From Hydrogenophaga sp. (GTDB lineage: Bacteria > Pseudomonadota > Gammaproteobacteria > Burkholderiales > Burkholderiaceae_C): a stretch of DNA of 64,000 bases. The stretch covers positions 1-64,000 of the forward strand of contig JAGKSX010000014.1 of the NCBI GenBank assembly GCA_018993155.1, in the 5' to 3' direction. Below are positions 30,336-40,460 of the stretch, one piece after another. The first letter of the stretch is position 1. Each line of letters opens with the position of its first letter. The notes below the pieces were generated by a model that made no database searches, was not told where the DNA came from, and worked only from the letters and a program-made list of their open reading frames with translations. Position numbers and translations under genes: made by a program.

Positions 30336-30974
30336 TCAGGCGCCCCCCGCATCGATCAGGCCGTTGCGGATGGCGAAGCGCACAAGGGCTGGCACGTCAG
30401 GCGCGCCAAGCTTTGCCATGATGCGGCTGCGGTACGAGTCCACCGTTTTGGGCGACAGGTGCAGTGCGCGCCCGATCTCCGCGCTGGACTGCCCCTGCAC
30501 CACCATCAGCACGATCTGGCGCTCACGCACCGAGAGCGTGTCCAGGGCGTCGTCACCCGGCGCGGTGAACCCCTGCACGGCGAGCTCGGCCACATCGGGC
30601 CCCAGGAATCGTTGCCCCTTGCTCACGGCATCGACCGCTTGCAGCAGCTGGGAGGCGGGCGATCCCTTGAGCACATATCCAGCCGCACCCAGCCTCAGCG
30701 CCTCAGCCACATGGCGCGGCTGAGCCGACATGGTCAGCACAATCGAGCGCACCTCCGGCGCCCGGCGCTGCAGCTCGGTCAGCAACTCGAAACCTGAGCG
30801 CTGGTCCAGGTTCAGATCGAGCAGAACCACCACCGGCCCAAGCTCGCGCAGCTGGGCCAGCGCTCGCGTCGGGTCAGCCGACTCGCCCACCACGCAATGT
30901 CCGGCGGCTTCCAGCAGTGCCCGCAATCCGTCACGCATGAGTGTGTGGTCGTCGACCAGGTAGATGTTGCTCAT
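30336..30974 (-). CDS. NarL/LuxR-type response regulator
   Basis: A 212-residue two-domain regulator. Receiver: VDDH (about residue 7), acceptor Asp in VVLLDLNLDQ, Lys in GYVLKGSP. DNA-binding LuxR domain: LSVRERQIVLMVVQGQSSAE and the recognition helix HLSPKTVDSYRSRIMAKLG. It overlaps the upstream PAS kinase by 4 bp (ATGA), so the two form a classic two-component pair. Confidence 0.92.
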   Translation of the reverse strand: MSNIYLVDDHTLMRDGLRALLEAAGHCVVGESADPTRALAQLRELGPVVVLLDLNLDQRSGFELLTELQRRAPEVRSIVLTMSAQPRHVAEALRLGAAGYVLKGSPASQLLQAVDAVSKGQRFLGPDVAELAVQGFTAPGDDALDTLSVRERQIVLMVVQGQSSAEIGRALHLSPKTVDSYRSRIMAKLGAPDVPALVRFAIRNGLIDAGGA

Positions 30975-33622
30975 GGTCCAGGCGCCTTCCAGCTAAGGCT
31001 GACGCGTGTGCCGCCACCTGTTTCTGCGGTGATGGAACAGCGCGCGCCGATGGAGATGGCCCGCTCCCGCATGCCCACGATGCCCAGATGGCCGGGTCGG
31101 CCGAGCTGCATGTTCGGGGCGATGCCCACACCGTCGTCAACGACGTGCACATTGAGCCGGTTCGCATCACCTTCCAGCACCACCCGGATCAGCGACGCAT
31201 GTGCGTGAAGCCGGGCGTTGGCGACGGCTTCGCGCGCCACCATGAAAGCGCTGTACTCCACGTCGGAGGGCCACCGCTGGCGATACAGCCCATCGACAAC
31301 CTCCAGCAGCACGTCGGGGCCCGAGGCCGACAACGCGCCCCGGATTTCGTTGTCCAGCGCGGCCGCCAGGCCTTGTTCCTCGAGCAGGGGTGGCCGCAGG
31401 TCGGCCAGCACTTTGCGCACATCCCGCACCGCTTGCGCCAGAACACCCGAGAGATGCTGACACTGTTCCGCAAGCACGGGCGGCAAGGTCTCGCCCGCCA
31501 TGATCAGCAAGGTGTCGAGATTCAGGCGAGCCACCGCCAGAGACTGGCCAAGGTTGTCGTGCAGCGCCTGGGCAAGGCGTTGGGTGGTGATCCGCTCCTG
31601 CTGCATCAGCCGCTGATTGAGTTCGGAGAGTTCAAACTGGTGGGTGATCAGCGCTGTCTGCGCTGCGCGACGATCGGTGATGTCGCGCAGCACGGCGATG
31701 CAGCGGGTGCTGTCGAGCGCACGCGTGCTCACCTCCACCGGCACAACAGTGCCATCCCGACGTACGACGTTCCATTCCGCCAGCGGACCTGTATCGAATG
31801 GCTGGGTCTTCAGTGTGTCGGGCGGGACGGTCGACTGCTGGTCCGCCAGCAAGGCCTGCAGCGGCAGGTTGAGCAGGCTCTCACTGGCGTAGCCGAGCAT
31901 GGTCATGGCTTGCGGATTGGCGTCCAGGATGCGGTTGCCGGAGTCGATCAGCAGCACGCCGTCGGCCAGTTGCTCGAACAGCCTGCGCCGGTAGGCCTCG
32001 GATTCACGCAGTGCCGCCTCGGCCCTCTTGCGCGGCGTGATGTCGACGGTCGTGCCGGCCATGTAGACGGCCCGCCCTGCGTCGCTCCATTCGGCCAGTC
32101 CACGAACATGCATCCAGCGCCATTCGCCCCACGCATCGCAGATGCGAATCTCCAGATCGAACGGCTCCCGGTTCTTGAGATGGCGGTGCATCGCATGATG
32201 ATGCCGAACCAGGTCCTCGGGATGGATCATGGCAGCCAGGCGGCTGCTGCGATAGTCCAAAGCCGAAAACGGTTCAAACCCAAGCTGCCGCCAGAAATCG
32301 TCGCTGAAGCTGAGTCTGTCGCTCAACATGTCCCAGTCCCACACCTGACCGCTGGCCGCAGCCAGTCGATAACGCTGCTCACTGCGTCGCAAACTGGCTT
32401 CGCTTTCGCGCAAAGCCTGTTCACTCTCCACCAGATCCGTGACATCCAGCGCGATGCCTTGCACATAAGCAGGACTCCCATCGGCAGGATCGATCCGGCA
32501 GGAACGGTCGCGAAAATGGCGCCAATTGCCCTGTGCGTCGCGCAAGCGGTACTGAATCTGGTGGTCGATACCGTCCACGTATTCATCCGACAACGCAGCC
32601 ACCGCGCGTTCGCAATCGTCGGGGTGAAGCGCCTTGGTCCACATCAGCGGATCGGCCATCCATTCGCTCACTGTGTAGCCGAGGATGCGGATGGACGGGC
32701 TGACATACAACGTGCGATACGGGGGTTCGAGAGACGCCCGGTAGATCATCGCCGGCGTCTGCTCGGCCAGCAGACGGAAATCACGCTCGCGGTCGAGCAG
32801 CCGGCGTTCGAACGCCTTGCGTTCCGTGATGTCGTTGCAGAAGATCGAAATCCCCTCTGGCGAAGGGAAGACGCGTCCTTCAAACCACTTGTTCCAGGGC
32901 GCATAGAACGCCTCGAAGACTTGCGCCTGTTGGGACCGCAACGCCCTGTCGTACGCTTGGTGGAAAGCTTGCGCCTGCTCCAGCTCGTACTCGTCCCAGA
33001 TGTATCGACCGATCAGTTGTTCGGCTCGATCGCGCTGGAGCAGGCTCACGGCAGGCGCATTGAGGTAGGTGAAACGCATTTCCCTGTCGAGCGCAAAGAT
33101 CGCGTCGCCCACCCGATTGATCACGTGGTCCAGCAATTCCCGCGCGGTCCCCATTTCCCGCAGGGCATGCTCGACGTGGCGCTGCAGCGCCACATGCGCG
33201 GTCACCTCGTTGGCCACCACAAGGCTCACCGCACGGCCTTCATAGTCCAGGTCGCTGAAGGAAACGTCGACATCGATCAGGCTGCCGTCTTTTAGTCGAT
33301 GTTGCTCTCGCTTCGTCGATCGCTGACCACCGATGCCCACAGGCTCTCGCTCAGGCTCCTCACCCGCCTGGCTTTGGCTTTGCGGCGCGAGCCGGATGTC
33401 CCTGATGTTGAGTTGCAGGAACTCCTCGTGTGAATATCCGTAACGCGCGACGGCCGCCGCGTTGGCGGCCAAGATGCGTTTGCTGGTCTGCTCGAGTACC
33501 CACATCGGCTGCGGGTGGGCATCGAACAGCAACCGATAGCCCTGTTCATCACTCCACACTGCGGCCCGGATAGCTGAAGGTTCCGTTCTTCGGGGCGTGG
33601 GGCAATCCTTGGGCGCAGACAT
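30971..33622 (-). CDS. Multi-PAS NarX-type histidine kinase
   Basis: An 883-residue soluble kinase with five PAS domains (starting near YRLLFDAHP, LLDHVINRVGDAIF, FRLLAEQTP, YRLAAASGQVWDW and RRLFEQLADGVLL), a HisKA_3 dimerisation domain with the phospho-His in LAQALHDNLGQSLAVARL, and a HATPase (EAVANARLHAHA, DDGVGIA). There is no membrane segment, so the signal is internal, perhaps redox or a small molecule. The ATG at 33622 is used; a GTG at 33649 would add nine residues, and neither has a clear Shine-Dalgarno. It is coupled to the downstream regulator. Confidence 0.88.
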   Translation of the reverse strand: MSAPKDCPTPRRTEPSAIRAAVWSDEQGYRLLFDAHPQPMWVLEQTSKRILAANAAAVARYGYSHEEFLQLNIRDIRLAPQSQSQAGEEPEREPVGIGGQRSTKREQHRLKDGSLIDVDVSFSDLDYEGRAVSLVVANEVTAHVALQRHVEHALREMGTARELLDHVINRVGDAIFALDREMRFTYLNAPAVSLLQRDRAEQLIGRYIWDEYELEQAQAFHQAYDRALRSQQAQVFEAFYAPWNKWFEGRVFPSPEGISIFCNDITERKAFERRLLDRERDFRLLAEQTPAMIYRASLEPPYRTLYVSPSIRILGYTVSEWMADPLMWTKALHPDDCERAVAALSDEYVDGIDHQIQYRLRDAQGNWRHFRDRSCRIDPADGSPAYVQGIALDVTDLVESEQALRESEASLRRSEQRYRLAAASGQVWDWDMLSDRLSFSDDFWRQLGFEPFSALDYRSSRLAAMIHPEDLVRHHHAMHRHLKNREPFDLEIRICDAWGEWRWMHVRGLAEWSDAGRAVYMAGTTVDITPRKRAEAALRESEAYRRRLFEQLADGVLLIDSGNRILDANPQAMTMLGYASESLLNLPLQALLADQQSTVPPDTLKTQPFDTGPLAEWNVVRRDGTVVPVEVSTRALDSTRCIAVLRDITDRRAAQTALITHQFELSELNQRLMQQERITTQRLAQALHDNLGQSLAVARLNLDTLLIMAGETLPPVLAEQCQHLSGVLAQAVRDVRKVLADLRPPLLEEQGLAAALDNEIRGALSASGPDVLLEVVDGLYRQRWPSDVEYSAFMVAREAVANARLHAHASLIRVVLEGDANRLNVHVVDDGVGIAPNMQLGRPGHLGIVGMRERAISIGARCSITAETGGGTRVSLSWKAPGP

Positions 33623-33682
33623 CAGGGTATTGTGCGCGCCTGGAGGCACATTCAGGCGCGCGCCAGCTCAGGGCCACCGGCC

Positions 33683-33752: not shown

Positions 33753-33917
33753 TCAGCGCTTTCGGACCAGGCCGACCACGATCGAGACCAGGGCCATGAC
33801 CAGAAAGACCACGAAAAGCAGCTTGGCGATGCCGGCCGCGCTGGCGGCGATGCCGCCGAAGCCCAGCACAGCGGCAATCAGGGCGATGACAAAGAAAACC
33901 ACGGCGTAGTGCAGCAT
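33753..33917 (-). CDS. DUF1328 small membrane protein (YtjA type)
   Basis: A 54-residue protein with two transmembrane helices ([19 protein letters not shown] and [20 protein letters not shown]) and the RKR C-terminus typical of DUF1328/YtjA. CAGGAG lies 8 bases before the ATG. The family is often stress-induced, but its function is unknown. A shared promoter signature lies upstream (see 33990-34057). Confidence 0.9.
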
Positions 33918-33989
33918 GGTGGGCTCCTGTGTGAGGCCGGTGGTCCGGCCTTTTGGTGGGTTCACAACGACCACCGTTGTGATGCCTTC

Positions 33990-34057
33990 ACTGTAGGGAC
34001 CCCGGTGCGAGAAAGCTGCAAGCCCGAGCGCCGTTGTCTCGTAGGACGGCACCGACA
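33990..34057 (-). promoter_or_regulatory. Stress-type promoter of DUF1328 with GacA-box-like dyad
   Basis: Read in the gene's direction: a dyad TGTCGG-TGCCGT-CCTACG (34057-34040), then CCTACAGTG (33997-33989) exactly 48 bp downstream of the right half. TACAGT is a plausible -10. The same arrangement and spacing precede the csbD-like gene and the 54-residue peptide gene at 40172. The binding protein is inferred to be a NarL/GacA-type regulator. Confidence 0.6.
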
Positions 34058-34072
34058 CTTCGCGCGCGCCGC

Positions 34073-34705
34073 CTACTGGATCAGGCCGTTCTTCAGCGCG
34101 TAGTAGGTGAGGTCGCTGTTGCTCGTGAGTTTGAGCTTTTCGAGCACGCGCGTGCGGTAGGTGCTCACGGTCTTGATGCTCAGAAACATGGACTCGGCCA
34201 TGTTGCCGATGGTCTCACCCTTGGCCAGGCGCAGGAACACCTGCAGTTCGCGCTCGGACAGCAGTTCGTGTGGTGGGCGCTCGGCATCGCCCGCGGCGTT
34301 GTCGGCCAGCAGCTCGGCCACGGCCGGGCTGATGTAGCGCCGGCCGCGCGCCACGGTGCGGATGGCCGTGACGATGTCGTCGGGCGCGCAGTCCTTGTTC
34401 AGGTAACCGCTGGCGCCATAGCGCAGCAGCGTGGTGGCGTACTGCGCTTCGGGAAAGCCGCTGAGGATGAGCACCGGCAGATCGGGAAAGCGCGCCTTGA
34501 TGGCCTGCAGCGCGTCCACGCCGCTGTGGTCGGGCATGGAGATGTCCATCAACAGCACATCCACCTCGCCCCCGCGCACGAGTTCGAGGGCCTCACGGCC
34601 GTTGTTGGCCTCGCCCGTCACTTTCAGGTCCACGTGTTCGCTCAGGAACTGGCGCAGGCCTGATCGCACGATGGCGTGGTCGTCAACGATTCCGACTTTG
34701 ATCAT
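34073..34705 (-). CDS. GacA/UvrY-like LuxR-type response regulator
   Basis: A 210-residue regulator. Receiver: [10 protein letters not shown], acceptor Asp in [13 protein letters not shown] (about residue 54), Lys in [10 protein letters not shown]-terminal Lux[24 protein letters not shown] and [16 protein letters not shown], close to the KTVNTYRYRIFEKL of GacA. No kinase is adjacent on the same strand, so it could be served by the kinases at 36.7-39.4 kb. It is the best local candidate to bind the TGTAGG-N6-CCTACA-type sites around it. A weaker copy of that site (34775-34792) precedes its own gene. Confidence 0.9.
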
Positions 34706-34726
34706 GGTGTCCTTGATGCTTGCTTC

Positions 34727-34792
34727 TTTTATGTGTGGGCCGCAAGCAATTTAACAGGCCGGCTCCCCGGGGGCAGTCAGACGCCTCCTACA
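34727..34792 (-). promoter_or_regulatory. Weak dyad and -10-like box upstream of the GacA-like regulator
   Basis: In the gene's direction: TGTAGG-AGGCGT-CTGACT (34792-34775), the right half degenerate, and CATAAA (34733-34728) about 48 bp further on. It could indicate autoregulation but is the poorest member of the set. Confidence 0.3.
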
Positions 34793-34805
34793 ACCCCACC
34801 CCGCG

Positions 34806-34874
34806 CATCGGCCATGTCCTACACACGCTCGGCCCGCCGCCCGACATCCGGCAACCGGCGGATTTCCTACAGTG
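34806..34874 (+). promoter_or_regulatory. Stress-type promoter of the csbD-like gene
   Basis: CATCGG-CCATGT-CCTACA (34806-34823) followed, 48 bp from half to half, by CCTACAGTGG (34866-34875). The right half is perfect and the left half matches the consensus at three of six positions. Layout and spacing equal those at DUF1328 and the 54-residue peptide. A 220-bp gap holds this element plus a third CCTACA at 34787. Confidence 0.6.
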
Positions 34875-34925
34875 GCTTCACGGTCTTCTGACCGGTACCT
34901 GCAAACCCAACCACAAGGAGTCGCC

Positions 34926-35165
34926 ATGAACTGGGATCGCATCGAAGGCAACTGGAAACAAGTCAAGGGAAAGATGGTCGAGCAGTGGGGCAAGCTCACC
35001 GACGACGATTTCGACGTCGTGGCCGGCCGCCGTGAACAGCTCACCGGCAAGATCCAGGAACGCTACGGCGTGGCCAAGGACGAAGCCGAACGCCAGGTGG
35101 CGGACTGGGAACGGCGCGTCAGCGACGACTGGTTCGAAACTCCCAACGACCGCAAGCCGCACTGA
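34926..35165 (+). CDS. CsbD-family stress protein
   Basis: A 79-residue hydrophilic protein with the CsbD signature: MNWDRIEGNWKQVKGKM and YGVAKDEAERQV. Family members are general-stress proteins induced by sigma factors or osmotic shock; the molecular role is unknown. AAGGAG lies 8 bases before the ATG. It leads a likely csbD-BON-BON unit. Confidence 0.93.
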   Translation: MNWDRIEGNWKQVKGKMVEQWGKLTDDDFDVVAGRREQLTGKIQERYGVAKDEAERQVADWERRVSDDWFETPNDRKPH

Positions 35166-35225
35166 CCTGCGAATTTGCTTCATTCACCTTCGTCGGCCTG
35201 ACCGGCGATCTGAAAGGACAACATC

Positions 35226-35666
35226 ATGAAACGCAACACCCGACTCGCGGCCATCGCCGCAGCCGCCATGGCCACCAGCCTGATCGTGGCGTGTGGCCAG
35301 AAGGAAGACGAAACCGTGGGCCAGCGCATGGACAGCACGGTGGAGCAGACCCAGGCAGCGGGCGCTGAACTGCGCGCCGATGCCAACAACGCCGCACAGG
35401 ACGTGAAGGCCGCCGGCAACGAAGCCGCCGACAAGATCGCCATGGGCGCCGCCGACGTGGCCATCACCGCCAAGGTAAATGCCGCCCTGGCCGGCGACTC
35501 GCAACTGAGTGCGCTCAAGATCGACGTGGACACCACCAACGGCCACGTGGAACTGAAAGGCACCGCACCCGACCCCGCCGCCCGAGATCGCGCGACCGTC
35601 CTGGCCGCCGCCGTCGAAGGCGTGGTGAAGGTGGAAAACCGCCTGACCGTCGAGGCCAAGGGCTGA
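35226..35666 (+). CDS. BON-domain lipoprotein
   Basis: A 146-residue protein with a lipobox (TSLIVACG, Cys about 24), an Ala/Asp-rich helical linker (residues about 30-75) and one BON domain (DVAITAKVNAALAGDSQLSALKIDVD...GHVELKGTAPD...VKVENRLTVE). BON domains bind phospholipid, as in OsmY, and stabilise the envelope under osmotic stress. It follows the csbD-like gene by 60 bp. Confidence 0.9.
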   Translation: MKRNTRLAAIAAAAMATSLIVACGQKEDETVGQRMDSTVEQTQAAGAELRADANNAAQDVKAAGNEAADKIAMGAADVAITAKVNAALAGDSQLSALKIDVDTTNGHVELKGTAPDPAARDRATVLAAAVEGVVKVENRLTVEAKG

Positions 35667-35715
35667 CCAGCCCCCAGGCCCATCTCTCTCTGAATCTCAA
35701 ATGACCACCACCGCC

Positions 35716-35746
35716 ACCGGCGGGCCCTCCCTGGGGGCTCGCCGGT
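35716..35746. other. 12-bp hairpin between the two BON genes
   Basis: ACCGGCGGGCCC (35716-35727) pairs with GGGCTCGCCGGT (35735-35746) with one G-U pair. There is no U-run, so it is more likely an mRNA-stability or partial-termination element than a full terminator. Confidence 0.45.
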
Positions 35747-35779
35747 TGCTCCAAGAACCCAAACCCTGAGGAGAATCCC

Positions 35780-36091
35780 ATGAAACTGTCGCACACCCTG
35801 CTGGCCATTGCCGCCGCCACCGCCGTCGTTCAGGTCACCGGCTGTGCCGTGGCCCGCGATCAACAGACCGTCGGCGCCTACGTCGACGACGCCACCATCA
35901 CGACCCGGGTGAAGGCCGCCTACGCCAAGGACCCGGTCGTGGCCGCCACGTCCATCAACGTCGAGACGCTCAACGGCACGGTGCAGCTCTCGGGCTTCGC
36001 CAAGTCCGCCGGTGAAAAGAGCGCGGCCGAGCGCCTGGCTCGTGACGTCAGCGGCGTGAAATCCGTGAAAAACGACATCGTGGTCCGCTGA
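35780..36091 (+). CDS. BON-domain lipoprotein
   Basis: A 103-residue lipoprotein with a lipobox (VQVTGCAV, Cys about 20) and a single BON domain (DDATITTRVKAAYAKDPVVAATSINVETLNGTVQLSGFAKS...VKSVKNDIVVR). It resembles OsmY/YraP-type outer-membrane lipoproteins. GAGGAG lies 7 bases upstream of the ATG. It is the third gene of the csbD unit and a paralogue-like partner of the preceding BON protein. Confidence 0.9.
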   Translation: MKLSHTLLAIAAATAVVQVTGCAVARDQQTVGAYVDDATITTRVKAAYAKDPVVAATSINVETLNGTVQLSGFAKSAGEKSAAERLARDVSGVKSVKNDIVVR

Positions 36092-36110
36092 AAGAGACGG
36101 GGGCTGGTCC

Positions 36111-36190
36111 TGTAGGACGCCGCCTACATCAAAATCAGCGCCTCTGAAGGCGAAGGAGAGCACAAACGCGGCATGATGGCTGCGTTTGTG
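36111..36190 (+). promoter_or_regulatory. Perfect GacA-box-like dyad and second perfect dyad upstream of the receiver gene
   Basis: TGTAGG-ACGCCG-CCTACA (36111-36128) is a perfect 6-6-6 dyad. Its right half lies 48-50 bp upstream of CATGAT (36172-36177), a possible -10. That box sits inside the 12-base centre of a second perfect dyad, CACAAACGC (36161-36169) and GCGTTTGTG (36182-36190), which could be an operator or an mRNA hairpin. Confidence 0.6.
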
Positions 36191-36258
36191 CGTGAAAGCA
36201 TCCTCGGGTGTTTTCACCTGCACCGGAAATACCCTGGAACGCTCACGCCCGCCTGCCC

Positions 36259-36660
36259 ATGTCACCGCTCAGAACCTACATCGTCGAGGACAACAAGGTC
36301 ATCTATGAGAACTTGGTGTCCACGCTGGAAGAGCTGGCCAACGTGGAGGTGGTCGGGCACGCCAGCGACGAAGAAACGGCCGTGAACTGGCTGCAACAAG
36401 GTGATCGGTTCGACCTCATGATCATCGACATCTTCCTGGTCACCGGCTCGGGCCTGGGTGTGCTGAAAGCCGCCCAGGAGTCCAATGTGCCGGCGCGCCG
36501 GGTGGTGCTCACCAACTACGCCACGCCCGATATCCGCAAGCGCTGCGCGCTGCTGGGGGCGGACCGTGTGTTCGACAAGTCGTGCGAACTGGACGACTTG
36601 ATCGCCTATTGCGAACGCATTTCCGACGGCTCGGCCACCGCGCCCGGCGGTCTTCAATAG
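36259..36660 (+). CDS. Stand-alone receiver-domain protein
   Basis: A 133-residue protein that is only a receiver: VEDN (about residue 10), acceptor Asp in LMIIDIFLVTG (about 57), Thr in VVLTNY, Lys in VFDKSCE (about 107). No output domain is present. It resembles CheY-like relays or proteins that tune a neighbouring kinase. It starts a likely operon with two membrane kinases (18-bp gap to the first). Confidence 0.88.
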   Translation: MSPLRTYIVEDNKVIYENLVSTLEELANVEVVGHASDEETAVNWLQQGDRFDLMIIDIFLVTGSGLGVLKAAQESNVPARRVVLTNYATPDIRKRCALLGADRVFDKSCELDDLIAYCERISDGSATAPGGLQ

Positions 36661-36678
36661 GTCCGGCCAGCCCCTCCA

Positions 36679-38082
36679 ATGCCCTCCCCCTCTCCCATTC
36701 CCGGGCGCCGCTCACCCTGGCGAACCCCGCTGGCCATCGCGCTGGCGGTGTTGCTGGCGCTGGGGGTGCTGGCCGGGGCGGAGTGGACCTACCAGCGCGC
36801 CCTGGAATCCCTCGCCAGCCTGGGCGCGCGCGACACCGCGCGCAACGCCATCCAGACCGTGATGCGCCGCCTGCTCGACATGGAAACCGCCCAGCGCGGC
36901 TACCTGCTCACCGGCCGGCCTCAGTACCTCGACCCCTACCAGGCCGCCGAAACCGACATCGCCCATGCCATCAGCCGCCTGCGCGAGCACTACCGCAGCG
37001 ACCCCGAGTTGCTGCGCCTGGTGGACAGCCTGCAGGAGCGTGCGCGCGAAAAAACCTCGGAGGTCACCGAGACCATCGCGCTGTACAACGCCGGCTCCCA
37101 CGCCGCCTGGCACGGGCTGATGCTCACCGACATCGGCCGCGAGAAGATGGAGGGGGTGCGCCGGGTGGCCGACGTGCTGATGGTCACGGAAGAGCGCCGC
37201 CTCGGCATCGAACGGGCGGACATCTACCGCACGCTGGCGGTGGGCCACGTCGGCGTGTACGTTCTGACGCTGCTGAGCCTGCTGGCCTACGTGTTCTTCC
37301 TGCGCAAGAATGCCGCCCTGCAGACCAGCCAGATCGAACATGCCCGCCATCTGCAGATGGAGCGCGATTCGCTGGAGAGCCAGGTGCGGCTGCGCACGGA
37401 AGAGCTCGCGCAGCTCAACCTCGGCCTGCAGGAGATGCGCGACGGCGAGCGCAGCGGCCTGGCGCGCGCGCTGCACGACGACCTGGGCGCCCTGCTCACC
37501 GCCGCCAAGCTCGACCTCACGCGGCTGCGCCACTCGCTGCACACCACCGACCCGGAAGTGATCGAGCGACTGCGGCACCTGAGCTCCTCGCTGGACGAGG
37601 GCATCGGGATGAAGCGGCGCATGATGGAAGAGCTGATGCCATCGGCCCTGCACAACCTGGGCCTGCAGGCCGCCATCGAGCACCGCGCCACCGAGTTCGA
37701 GCGGCAGACGGGCATGACCATCGACCTGGCCTTCATGCCCGTCACGCTGGACGTGCCGTCCGAACAGGCACTGTTCGCGGTGGTGCAGGGCGCGCTGTCC
37801 AATGTGGAGCGGCACGCCAGCGCCACGATCGTTTCGCTGCGCCTGGCCCAGGAAGGCATCCACGCGGTGGTGGAGGTGCAGGACAACGGGCTGGGCTTCG
37901 CCGACCACCAAGGCACCACCTCGGCCAGTGGGCTGAGGAACCTGCGCCACCGCATCGAGTCGCTCGGCGGGCAGTTCAGCGTGCACTCCGTGCCGGGCTC
38001 GGGCACCCGCGTCATGGCGCGCCTGCCCTTGCGCCAGCGCGATCCGGCCCAGCCCGGTGCCCCACGTGCTACAACCTCCTGA
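36679..38082 (+). CDS. Membrane sensor histidine kinase (CHASE3-like, HisKA_3), first of a tandem pair
   Basis: A 467-residue kinase. N-terminal transmembrane helix (TPLAIALAVLLALGVLAGAEW), a periplasmic helical CHASE3-like domain (MRRLLDMETAQRGYLLTGRPQYLDPY is diagnostic), a second helix (VGVYVLTLLSLLAYVFFL, about residue 200), a coiled coil, HisKA_3 with the phospho-His in LARALHDDLGALLTAAKLDL, and HATPase (ALSNVERHA, DNGLGF). Its stop overlaps the next kinase start (TGATG). Confidence 0.9.
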   Translation: MPSPSPIPGRRSPWRTPLAIALAVLLALGVLAGAEWTYQRALESLASLGARDTARNAIQTVMRRLLDMETAQRGYLLTGRPQYLDPYQAAETDIAHAISRLREHYRSDPELLRLVDSLQERAREKTSEVTETIALYNAGSHAAWHGLMLTDIGREKMEGVRRVADVLMVTEERRLGIERADIYRTLAVGHVGVYVLTLLSLLAYVFFLRKNAALQTSQIEHARHLQMERDSLESQVRLRTEELAQLNLGLQEMRDGERSGLARALHDDLGALLTAAKLDLTRLRHSLHTTDPEVIERLRHLSSSLDEGIGMKRRMMEELMPSALHNLGLQAAIEHRATEFERQTGMTIDLAFMPVTLDVPSEQALFAVVQGALSNVERHASATIVSLRLAQEGIHAVVEVQDNGLGFADHQGTTSASGLRNLRHRIESLGGQFSVHSVPGSGTRVMARLPLRQRDPAQPGAPRATTS

Positions 38083-39437
38083 TGATGATCAAGTCCTCCA
38101 TCGAACGTGTGGCGCGCAACCGCTTCGGGATGCCCATCATCCTGGCGCTGGCGCTGATCATGCTTGTGGTCAACGAAGCGAGCTACCAGCATTCGCGTTC
38201 CACGCTGATGCAGGGCATCACGCTGAGCGATGCGCGCCAGCAGGCCGCCCGCACCCTGCAGGCCCTCACCGACGCAGAGGTCGCGGTGCGCGCCTTCATG
38301 CTCAGCGCCCAGCAGGCCGACCTGAGCAACTACCGCGAGGCCATCAACGAGATGGAGGGGGTTCAGAAGGATGCGTTCAAGCGGCTGGAAGAACTGGACC
38401 CCAAGCGCACCGTGTCGGTGGTGAACGTGCGCAAGCGGATCGAGGAGCGCACGGCCACCTTGAACCAGTGGGTGAGCATGATCGAGCAGGGCCGGCGCAC
38501 GGATGCCCAGACACTCGCCGTGAGCGACCAGGGCCGCCTGCGTTATGCCGAACTGCGCCAGGAGTTCGAGTTCGTGCTCGAACGCGCCGCCGCGATCCAG
38601 AAGACGGCGCGGGTGTCGCTCTACGACGCGATGATGATCAACCGGCTGGCGATCCACCTGCTGGTGCTGGTGGCCTGGGTGGCGCTGATCCTGTTCATGC
38701 GCCAGCTGCGCGACAACGACCGGCGCCAGGCCGAGGAGCACCAGCGGCTGGCCACGCAGGTGGCCTTGCGCACCACCGCGCTGCGCAACCTGGCCGGTCA
38801 CCACGTCAACGCCCGGGAAGACGAGCGCGGGCGGGTGGCGCGCGAGCTGCACGACGAGATGGGCGGCCTGCTCACCGCGATGAAGCTCGACATCGCGCGC
38901 CTGCGCCGCGTGCCCGCCCTGCCGCCTCCCGCGCTGGAGCGCCTGGCCAGCATCGAACAGCGCCTGACCGAGGGCATTGCCGTGAAGCGGCGCATCATCG
39001 AACACCTGCGGCCGTCCTCGCTGGACCAGCTGGGCCTGATCCCCGCGCTGGAAATGCTCTGCCAGGACGCGGCTGGCCGCATGGGCATCGAGGTGGAGAT
39101 GCACCTCTCGCCGGTTGAACTCGGCAAGGACGCGGAACTCACCGTGTACCGGCTGGTGCAGGAGTCCCTGACCAACGTCCAGAAGTACGCGCGAGCCCAC
39201 CGCGTGTGGGTGGGACTGGCGCAGGAGGACGGCACGGTGCGCGTCTCGGTGCGCGACGACGGCCAGGGATTCGACATCGACAGCGTGCCGGCGGGCCACC
39301 ACGGCCTGCTGGGCATGCGGGTGCGGGTGGAGTCGCACAGCGGCCAGCTGCACGTCCACAGCGAGCCGCGCCAGGGCACCCTGGTGGAGGCCGAGCTGCC
39401 GGCGAAGACCCTCGACACCCCCGCAGATCGGGCCTGA
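38082..39437 (+). CDS. Membrane sensor histidine kinase (CHASE3-like, HisKA_3), second of a tandem pair
   Basis: A 451-residue kinase with the same plan as its upstream neighbour: transmembrane helix (FGMPIILALALIMLVVNEA), periplasmic helical domain (TDAEVAVRAFMLSAQQADLSNYREA), second helix (LAIHLLVLVAWVALILFM), HisKA_3 with LHDEMGGLLTAMKLD, and HATPase (ESLTNVQKYA, DDGQGFD, GLLGMRVRVES). The ATG at 38082 overlaps the preceding stop by 1 bp. The two kinases are diverged, so a heterodimer or two inputs to one regulator are possible. Confidence 0.9.
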   Translation: MMIKSSIERVARNRFGMPIILALALIMLVVNEASYQHSRSTLMQGITLSDARQQAARTLQALTDAEVAVRAFMLSAQQADLSNYREAINEMEGVQKDAFKRLEELDPKRTVSVVNVRKRIEERTATLNQWVSMIEQGRRTDAQTLAVSDQGRLRYAELRQEFEFVLERAAAIQKTARVSLYDAMMINRLAIHLLVLVAWVALILFMRQLRDNDRRQAEEHQRLATQVALRTTALRNLAGHHVNAREDERGRVARELHDEMGGLLTAMKLDIARLRRVPALPPPALERLASIEQRLTEGIAVKRRIIEHLRPSSLDQLGLIPALEMLCQDAAGRMGIEVEMHLSPVELGKDAELTVYRLVQESLTNVQKYARAHRVWVGLAQEDGTVRVSVRDDGQGFDIDSVPAGHHGLLGMRVRVESHSGQLHVHSEPRQGTLVEAELPAKTLDTPADRA

Positions 39438-39462
39438 ACGCGCCACCCTCTCCCGCCGGCCC

Positions 39463-40158
39463 ATGCCCCGCTCACGGCCCACTCACCCGCTGCCGCACCG
39501 GCTGACCCACCTCACGGCCTGGCAGCGGCAGGTGGTGGCCTTGCTCCCGGCGGTGCTCGTGGGCGCCGCCAGCGCCACCTGGGCCACCCTCCCCGGTCCC
39601 GCCCCCTGGCTCATGGCCTGGATCGTGTACTGCGCCACCTACGTGGGCCTGGTGTGGCACCTCGCCGCGCGCCTGGACGCAAGAGCCACCCAGCAGCGCG
39701 CGCAACGAGAAGACCCGGGTGCCGCGATGCTGTTCGTGCTGGTCACCGCCGCAGCTTGCGCGAGCCTCGTGGCGGTGGCGATGAACGTGCAGGCCACGCA
39801 GGCGCTGCAAGGCTGGCAACGCGCGTCCAGCCTCGGGCTCATGGCCTTGTCGCTGGCCGGGGCATGGCTGCTGATCCAGGGTGTGTTCACGCTGCACTAC
39901 GCGCGGGTGTATTACCGCAGCCAGGGCGATCAAGGCACGCCCGACCGGGGGCTCGGCTTTCCCGACGGCAAGGACCCGGACTACCTCGACCTGCTGTACT
40001 ACAGCGCGGTGATCGGCATGACCTCGCAGGTGTCCGACGTGAGCATCCGCAGCCGCGGCATGCGGCACCTCACGCTGGTGCACGCCCTGCTGTCGTTCGC
40101 GTTCAATCTGATCGTGCTGGCCACGGCGGTCAATGTGTTCGCCAGCGCCGGGCGCTGA
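39463..40158 (+). CDS. DUF1345 membrane protein
   Basis: A 231-residue protein with about five hydrophobic helices; the stretch FPDGKDPDYLDLLYYSAVIGMTSQVSDVSI is characteristic of DUF1345. The TSQVSD region resembles a potassium-channel pore loop region, and the family has been likened to channels, but the activity is unknown. It follows the second kinase by 25 bp and is likely in the same operon. Confidence 0.85.
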   Translation: MPRSRPTHPLPHRLTHLTAWQRQVVALLPAVLVGAASATWATLPGPAPWLMAWIVYCATYVGLVWHLAARLDARATQQRAQREDPGAAMLFVLVTAAACASLVAVAMNVQATQALQGWQRASSLGLMALSLAGAWLLIQGVFTLHYARVYYRSQGDQGTPDRGLGFPDGKDPDYLDLLYYSAVIGMTSQVSDVSIRSRGMRHLTLVHALLSFAFNLIVLATAVNVFASAGR

Positions 40159-40171
40159 GAGCCGCCAAGGC

Positions 40172-40336
40172 TCAAGGCGTGAGTGTGGTGGCCAAGGCCG
40201 AGACGGCGGTGTTCATGCCCGCCACGGCCCGCACGAAATGGGCCTCGACGTCGAACCAGGGATGGACCGCTGCCGCCGACACGGCGATCACCAGGGTCGC
40301 GAGGTAACCCACGATGGCAGGTGCTGGCATGTGCAT
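40172..40336 (-). CDS. 54-residue single-pass membrane peptide
   Basis: A small protein starting MHMPAPAIVGYLATLVIAVSAAAVHPWF, with one transmembrane helix (about residues 8-27) and a mixed C-terminus. No family is recognised. A strong GGAGG lies 6 bases before the ATG at 40336. Upstream is the full stress-type promoter shared with csbD and DUF1328, which is the main support for it being a real gene. It is convergent with the DUF1345 gene. Confidence 0.65.
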   Translation of the reverse strand: MHMPAPAIVGYLATLVIAVSAAAVHPWFDVEAHFVRAVAGMNTAVSALATTLTP

Positions 40337-40392
40337 GAGGTCCTCCGTGAATGGCTTTGGCGTTCCGGAGGGCATCCTTCGCGCGTGGGTCC

Positions 40393-40460
40393 ACTGTAGG
40401 GACGGCTGGCCCGCCGCCCCACCGGACAACGGCGGCTTGGGGCGTCGGACGTGTCCTACA
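40393..40460. promoter_or_regulatory. Bidirectional stress-type dyad between the 54-residue peptide gene and pyk
   Basis: On the plus strand: TGTAGG (40395-40400), then CGTCGG-ACGTGT-CCTACA (40443-40460), with 48 bp from the start of TGTAGG to the start of CGTCGG. Read toward the peptide gene this is TGTAGG-N6-CCGACG followed by CCCTACAGTG. Read toward pyk, a GATAAT (40507-40512) lies 52 bp from the start of CCTACA, so the dyad may serve both genes. Confidence 0.55.

Follow-up and report, generated by a model that had tools for sequence, protein, structure and literature searches.

The window analysed here, a 64,000-nucleotide stretch of a Hydrogenophaga sp. genome (contig JAGKSX010000014.1, positions 1 to 64,000), carries the gene of a NarL/GacA-like response regulator (34073-34705, minus strand) and three small genes with a common promoter architecture. 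These are a csbD-like gene, a DUF1328 gene and the gene of a 54-residue peptide, all of them preceded by a rigid layout of an 18-bp dyad, 42 bp and then CCTACAGTG. The best explanation, with a probability of about 0.8, is a two-component stress regulon in which the 34073-34705 regulator would bind the dyad, together with a weaker site near -35, and activate the stress genes. An earlier reading of this DNA, made without database searches (the sequence-only reading), had proposed a stress regulon of NarL/GacA type, so far undescribed, with its regulator encoded alongside. This proposal is supported by the recurrence of the spacing, the co-occurrence of regulator and motif, the proximity of the motif to the regulator gene and further targets of stress type, and the regulon appears wider than proposed. 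It seems to be a NarL/GacA-type regulon that has a box of its own and a fixed promoter layout, and it is seemingly undescribed; no description of the box, the regulon or the regulator was found in open PMC papers.

A dyad at a fixed distance from the -10 element

Upstream of the csbD-like gene (34926-35165, plus strand, 79 aa), the dyad CATCGG-CCATGT-CCTACA occupies positions 34806-34823, centred at about -65.5, and is followed by a third half-site, CCGACA (34841-34846, about -39 to -34), and by CCTACAGTG at 34866-34874. The latter contains the -10 hexamer TACAGT (34868-34873), with a predicted +1 at A 34880. The DUF1328 gene (33753-33917, minus strand, 54 aa) is preceded on its own strand by TGTCGG-TGCCGT-CCTACG (34040-34057), by a third half-site recognised in the alignment of sites, CTTGCA (34017-34022), and by CCTACAGTG (33989-33997; -10 at 33995-33990, predicted +1 at A 33983). 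For the 54-residue peptide gene (40172-40336, minus strand), the corresponding elements, also on the minus strand, are TGTAGG-ACACGT-CCGACG (40443-40460) and CCTACAGTG (40392-40400; -10 at 40398-40393, predicted +1 at A 40386). The three dyads are kept in relatives, and a CA initiator is found in all three promoters (34879/34880, 33984/33983 and 40387/40386). These pairs at a fixed distance had been described in the sequence-only reading together with a perfect dyad at 36111; all coordinates check, and TGTAGG-ACGCCG-CCTACA is present at 36111-36128.

Taken singly, the dyads are imperfect, with 3, 4 and 4 of 6 arm positions complementary, and the strength of the signal therefore lies in the pairing of dyad and -10 element and in their spacing, as confirmed by relatives. 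In the 64-kb window, CCTACAGTG occurs only at these three sites, against 0.2 expected (maximum of 2 in 100 second-order Markov simulations). Genome-wide the nonamer alone is not enriched, with 10 copies against 14 for a reversed control pattern, so that the -10 by itself carries no signal. At 42 bp before the nonamer, the window copies show 2-3 mismatches of 12 to TGTAGG-N6-CCTACA, against 7-11 for the other seven copies in the genome. The dyad alone with 3 mismatches was discarded as too unspecific a search pattern (2062 matches per strand, 1619 for the control).

The architecture is conserved in related genomes. By using the window and 80 loci chosen solely through homologs of the 34073-34705 regulator, a gap of 42 bp was found in 46 of the 51 dyad/-10 pairs with gaps of 30-55 bp, one mismatch being allowed in CCTACAGT. 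Three of these 46 rows are the window's own, and two (L029 minus 2019 and L052 minus 6941) are overlapping artefacts and were dropped. In the same loci, CTACAGT follows at 43 bp in 32 of the 36 dyads with up to 3 mismatches of 12 and gaps of 20-69 bp. The gap-42 pairs precede mostly csbD, DUF1328 and 54-residue homologs in Hydrogenophaga, and DUF1328 in loci labelled Rubrivivax, Rhodoferax, Rhizobacter and Pelomonas; other genes follow in a few cases (L057, a receiver; L079; L089). Many of these sites are orthologous promoters and hence not independent events.

A third half-site, CYKRCA, which was missing from the sequence-only reading, lies 23 bp downstream of the right arm of the dyad. In alignment A1, which consists of 44 sites (3 from the window) picked by dyad and -10 only, its column 39 is C in 44 of 44. 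The logo of 102 non-redundant sites shows T-G-T-M-G-G-C for the left arm, G-T-C-C-T-A-C-A for the right arm, C-C-G-A-C-A at about -39 to -34 and C-C-T-A-c-A-g-T at the -10, where the strength of the scored columns is partly due to selection. C is present in 78% of these sites at column 65 (-13 from the inferred start), a column also used in scoring. No conserved -35 hexamer appears in this logo, and a simple -35 hexamer was rejected, the conserved block sitting at about -39 to -34 instead. In columns that were not scored, CA follows the -10 by 7 bp in 52 of the 102 sites, whereas none of the other 18 positions tested exceeds 29; part of this count is due to shared descent. The conserved initiator supports CCTACAGTG as a true -10 element.

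A model built from the 44 A1 sites (R1) was then applied to the genome of origin, where the three window sites scored 47-51 bits. Two sites outside the training set were recovered, one on contig 170 (L136; 27.7 bits, E 1.5e-5) before a Gln-rich small protein, and the other on contig 84 (L137; 22.2 bits, E 7.9e-4) before a 24-residue hydrophobic peptide. Both carry the third half-site and the -10 hexamer at identical columns. A second set, A2, comprises 40 sites chosen for diversity, and the scores given to them by model R2 are by construction.

The regulator and its co-occurrence with the motif

The product of 34073-34705 matches Response_reg (97.9 bits) and GerE (53.1 bits) in Pfam, which gives it the NarL/FixJ (LuxR-type) architecture. 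Its 17 nearest named relatives are 97% to 85% identical, and 14 of them are labelled Hydrogenophaga. The Pfam and NCBIfam results and the co-occurrence with the motif make it the proposed activator. The GacA-like character claimed in the sequence-only reading stands in part: the protein shares 39% identity with E. coli UvrY, and the recognition helices are similar (compared with SPKTVNSYRYRM), but it falls below the cutoff of the UvrY/SirA/GacA equivalog family NF007018 (184.9 against 280 bits), and this assignment was rejected. The same holds for the likeness of the box to that of UvrY/SirA/GacA, since the 18-bp inverted repeat with its 6-6-6 layout is common to both, whereas the half-site is TGTMGG in the 102 sites here and TGTAAG there. 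The UvrY box lies at about -183 in csrB, against -65.5 here, and the strongest UvrY targets are csrB/C, in contrast to the stress protein genes predicted here.

Among 40 genomes of the genus, the R1 motif was found at E <= 1e-5 in 20 of the 22 that carry the regulator at E <= 1e-60 and in none of the 18 that lack it; several of the regulator-positive genomes carry sites identical to A1 training rows, coming from the same or near species. The 250 genomes of the family comprise 120 with regulator and motif, 21 with the regulator only, 5 with the motif only and 104 with neither (odds ratio 119; Fisher p 1.4e-41, without correction for phylogeny). Three of the 5 motif-only genomes have a homolog of 51-54% identity with a similar recognition helix. 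Upstream regions of the DUF1328 and receiver genes were also scored, in loci retrieved through the regulator. In 20 loci of motif-positive genomes, the shuffle maximum of 13.4 was exceeded by 11 of 13 DUF1328 and 11 of 14 receiver upstreams; in 19 loci of regulator-only genomes, it was exceeded by 3 of 11 and 4 of 8, respectively (pooled, 14 of 24 and 15 of 22). The regulator-only group is thus partly a matter of threshold.

Outside the family, among the genomes listed, a regulator match at E <= 1e-55 was present in 16 of 16 motif-positive and 6 of 18 motif-negative genomes, and at E <= 1e-60 in 15 of 16 and 6 of 18; the 18 negatives are those listed of 180 without a match. The homologs concerned are 46-64% identical, which makes orthology less sure. 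The regulator gene is no more than 10 kb away for 32 of the 144 motif matches listed outside Hydrogenophaga, against 0.6 expected under random placement.

Proposed mechanism, precedents and competing explanations

In the proposed mechanism, a HisKA_3 kinase of the same cluster would respond to a signal and probably phosphorylate the 34073-34705 regulator. A dimer of the regulator would then occupy the 18-bp box YGTMGG-N6-CCKACR, centred at about -65.5, while a second dimer probably sits 23 bp downstream over the half-site CYKRCA, at about -39 to -34, beside the -35 region. From there, the regulator may recruit RNA polymerase to a promoter whose -10 reads C-C-TANANT, whose CA start follows after 7 bp and which has no conserved -35. 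The predicted target genes encode small proteins, most of them connected with the envelope or general stress, namely those of csbD, DUF1328, BON and the 54- and 24-residue peptides, to which relatives would add a ferritin-like protein, a hemerythrin, a lipocalin and a Crp-like gene. Further predicted targets are the receiver-kinase operon and, probably, the regulator gene itself. What the computations establish is the layout, its conservation, the genes behind it and its joint occurrence with the regulator; direct binding, the tandem dimer, activation as opposed to repression, the kinase and the signal are inferred.

UvrY and BvgA are, by analogy, the nearest mechanistic precedents. BvgA is a NarL-type activator. 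Crosslinks of UvrY were reported at the upstream 18-nt repeat and near -35 (PMC4682653, in excerpt). At the Bordetella fha and ptx promoters, an excerpt of PMC7250471 describes BvgA dimers, arranged head to head, that follow one another every 22 bp along the same face of the DNA, the final dimer abutting -35. Here the second half-site lies 23 bp from the first, with a degenerate left arm, and the second dimer is a putative one; half-site and targets differ from those described for BvgA in that excerpt. Another LuxR-type response regulator, CrbR of Pseudomonas, needs an imperfect inverted repeat, the ACTU motif, at conserved promoters (PMC5715377, in excerpt). As given there, the motif lies at -52 to -36, has another sequence and serves acetate genes, unlike the box described here.

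Other explanations have to be weighed against this mechanism. Another DNA-binding protein, for example a second NarL-type regulator, could read the box while the 34073-34705 regulator merely travels along, which is judged unlikely. Genome G013, which has no regulator at E <= 1e-60 yet carries the dyad before a Crp-like gene, speaks for such a protein, as do the NarL-type homologs of 45-54% identity in regulator-lacking genomes of this kind, and a comparison of csbD genes (see below) leaves it standing. It is opposed by the co-occurrence of regulator and motif in genus, family and order and by the proximity to the regulator gene; 112 of the 144 listed matches are away from the regulator, yet almost only in regulator-positive genomes. 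A dyad also stands before the regulator gene itself, and no other DNA-binding domain was found among the 11 cluster proteins scanned. A promoter governed by its sigma factor alone (sigma-S-like or of the extracytoplasmic function type), with CCTACAGT as the -10, the dyad as an upstream element and no need of the regulator, is very improbable. C at -13 before the -10 is a sigma-S promoter feature, and the C residues at -13 and -14 next to TACAGT do resemble sigma-S -10 elements. However, a palindrome at -65.5 is far from the sigma contacts, no -35 is conserved, presence tracks the response regulator, and variation in the -10 (TACGAT, TAGACT, AAAACT) contrasts with a conserved right arm. The sigma-S-controlled small proteins of Salmonella also include a CsbD and a DUF1328 homolog (PMC5437024, in excerpt), which favours this alternative; in that excerpt a sigma factor controls, whereas here a conserved dyad is tied to a response regulator. 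Based on that membership and the C at -13, sigma-S may cooperate here, and it may still be the sigma factor used at these promoters.

Repression of the target genes by the regulator, with relief under stress, deserves even less credence. A half-site near -36 could block RNA polymerase, but a rigid spacing from a dyad at -65.5 to the -10, without a -35, would be typical of activators, and the tandem dimers of the activator BvgA, 22 bp apart, likewise end at -35 in the excerpt of PMC7250471. As for a chance likeness of three unrelated GC-rich promoters, the only point in its favour is the genome-wide count of CCTACAGTG (10 against 14), and its probability is negligible: the gap of 42 bp is kept in related loci, which already refutes it, new sites appeared in the genome of origin, and the motif co-occurs with the regulator in the family. 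Both chance and a lack of conservation had been named in the sequence-only reading as grounds for giving up the regulon, and the proposal withstood both checks.

Several observations weigh against the regulon reading itself. The conservation is entirely one of descent, and phylogeny is not taken into account in the Fisher test. In the family, 21 of the 141 regulator-positive genomes lack the motif at E <= 1e-3, and 5 of the 109 negatives have it. Co-occurrence cannot fully separate the regulator from its gene cluster: the regulator and some targets share one cluster, and their joint loss would give co-occurrence without regulation. Within 3 kb of the regulator, csbD was found in none of 39 loci of other genera. 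At the promoter level, the third half-site is weak at the 54-residue gene of the window (CCGGTG) and poor at 54-residue genes generally, the dyad at 36111 is followed, at roughly the canonical distance, by CATGAT instead of a TANANT hexamer, and L052, L053, L058 and L096 carry CTACAGT at 66-67 bp rather than 43. The comparison of csbD upstreams, in which one csbD start (L124) was not found, had seemed favourable, with scores of -16.6 to -4.8 in four regulator-negative Hydrogenophaga genomes, within the range of shuffled DNA, and 17.7 to 48.8 for nine genes of regulator-positive genomes. However, csbD copies without the box also occur together with the regulator (L122 of G006, -19.7; L125 and L126, -10.8 and 8.0), and the unboxed csbD L118 is from G028, which has a 54% regulator homolog. 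Moreover, an alignment places three of the four csbD genes of regulator-negative genomes closer to the unboxed copies L122, L125 and L126 than to the boxed ones (mean identities of 78 against 69, 75 against 65 and 77 against 64%), the fourth being undecided (66 against 65). Because of this paralogy, the comparison shows which type of csbD is boxed, not a loss of the box with the regulator, and it was withdrawn as proof.

For the two-component regulon as a whole, a broader statement has a somewhat better than even chance of being right. A Burkholderiales-wide NarL/GacA-type phosphorelay, and not only sigma-S, would directly drive small-protein and envelope stress genes that enterics place under sigma-S. 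Its promoter code would be a rigid one of two dimers, there would be feedback on its own receiver-kinase operon and regulator gene, and its control would extend to micro-genes that lack annotation, among them that of the 24-residue membrane peptide. The analysis offers a testable binding site, promoter code, regulator, set of candidate kinases and target list, in a large bacterial group, for stress genes whose function is poorly known (csbD, DUF1328, BON and tiny membrane peptides), and it suggests that a two-component system does work assigned to sigma-S in enteric bacteria. The promoter model also offers a way to find micro-proteins that lack annotation.

Gene cluster and further predicted targets

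Two BON-domain genes (Pfam) follow csbD on the plus strand, at 35226-35666 and 35780-36091, and the same box is found before BON genes in some relatives. Downstream of them, the perfect dyad at 36111-36128 (plus strand) precedes the receiver-kinase operon, which comprises a stand-alone receiver protein (36259-36660, plus strand; Response_reg) and two CHASE3-HisKA_3 histidine kinases (36679-38082 and 38082-39437, plus strand), the first of them a candidate partner of the regulator. According to Pfam, the cluster holds three HisKA_3 kinases; besides these two, a kinase gene lies at 30971-33649. In the 39 loci of other genera, the 3 kb around the regulator hold the receiver in 36, the kinase in 38 (median identity 37%; one kinase query, 36679-38082), DUF1328 in 31 and BON in 2. 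The receiver gene was recognised through a short peptide pattern in 20 of 81 loci only; in 19 of these 20, including the window, its upstream region has the dyad with 0-1 mismatches, 13 of them perfect. In other genera, the receiver promoter often has the full layout.

A second dyad, TGTAGG-AGGCGT-CTGACT (34775-34792, minus strand), faces the regulator gene and is followed after 20 bp by TTAAAT (34749-34754, minus strand), the predicted -10 of this gene. Among 81 regulator upstreams, a dyad paired with TTAAAT or CTAAAT occurs in 10, with a spacing of 20 in 8 of them. This dyad and the one before the receiver gene are read as signs of probable autoregulation.

The genes preceded by the promoter in relatives were established with the models and include BON, hemerythrin, ferritin-like, lipocalin and Crp-like genes, stand-alone receivers and other small proteins; 4 of the 10 downstream proteins scanned from the wider set had no Pfam match. 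Genes as short as that of the 24-residue peptide are usually missed by annotation. The same promoter precedes this peptide in five other genomes (G011, G043, G048, G053 and G130). At L137 (contig 84:8490-8554), its open reading frame starts about 25 bp after the -10 and encodes MNTIIYIVGL.... The L136 protein is rich in Gln and Asn and has no Pfam match, and a hemerythrin gene lies downstream of it; at L222, the promoter stands directly before a hemerythrin gene. At L183, L216, L219, L221 and L228, the promoter of the Crp-like gene has the dyad and the half-site, with AAAACT or AACACT as the -10 (Pfam HTH_Crp_2, checked on L183 only).

The 54-residue peptide has no Pfam match and, for residues 2-54, no NCBIfam match; its orthologs in Hydrogenophaga loci have the same promoter. 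The four loci with the 66-67 bp layout carry strong dyads, and two of them, L052 and L053, retain CCGACA at the usual distance from the dyad; this layout may represent a different spacing that includes an extra site. In Achromobacter, a CsbD-DUF1328-BON cluster was raised in an antimonite-adapted mutant (PMC11719878, in excerpt). In Hydrogenophaga, a second type of csbD (MNWDTI..., ...QLTG...) has no full box (L116, L119, L120, L122 and L126) and is found in genomes with and without the regulator. In another Hydrogenophaga locus (L029, 7643-9178), a PLD-domain gene lies between the regulator and DUF1328.

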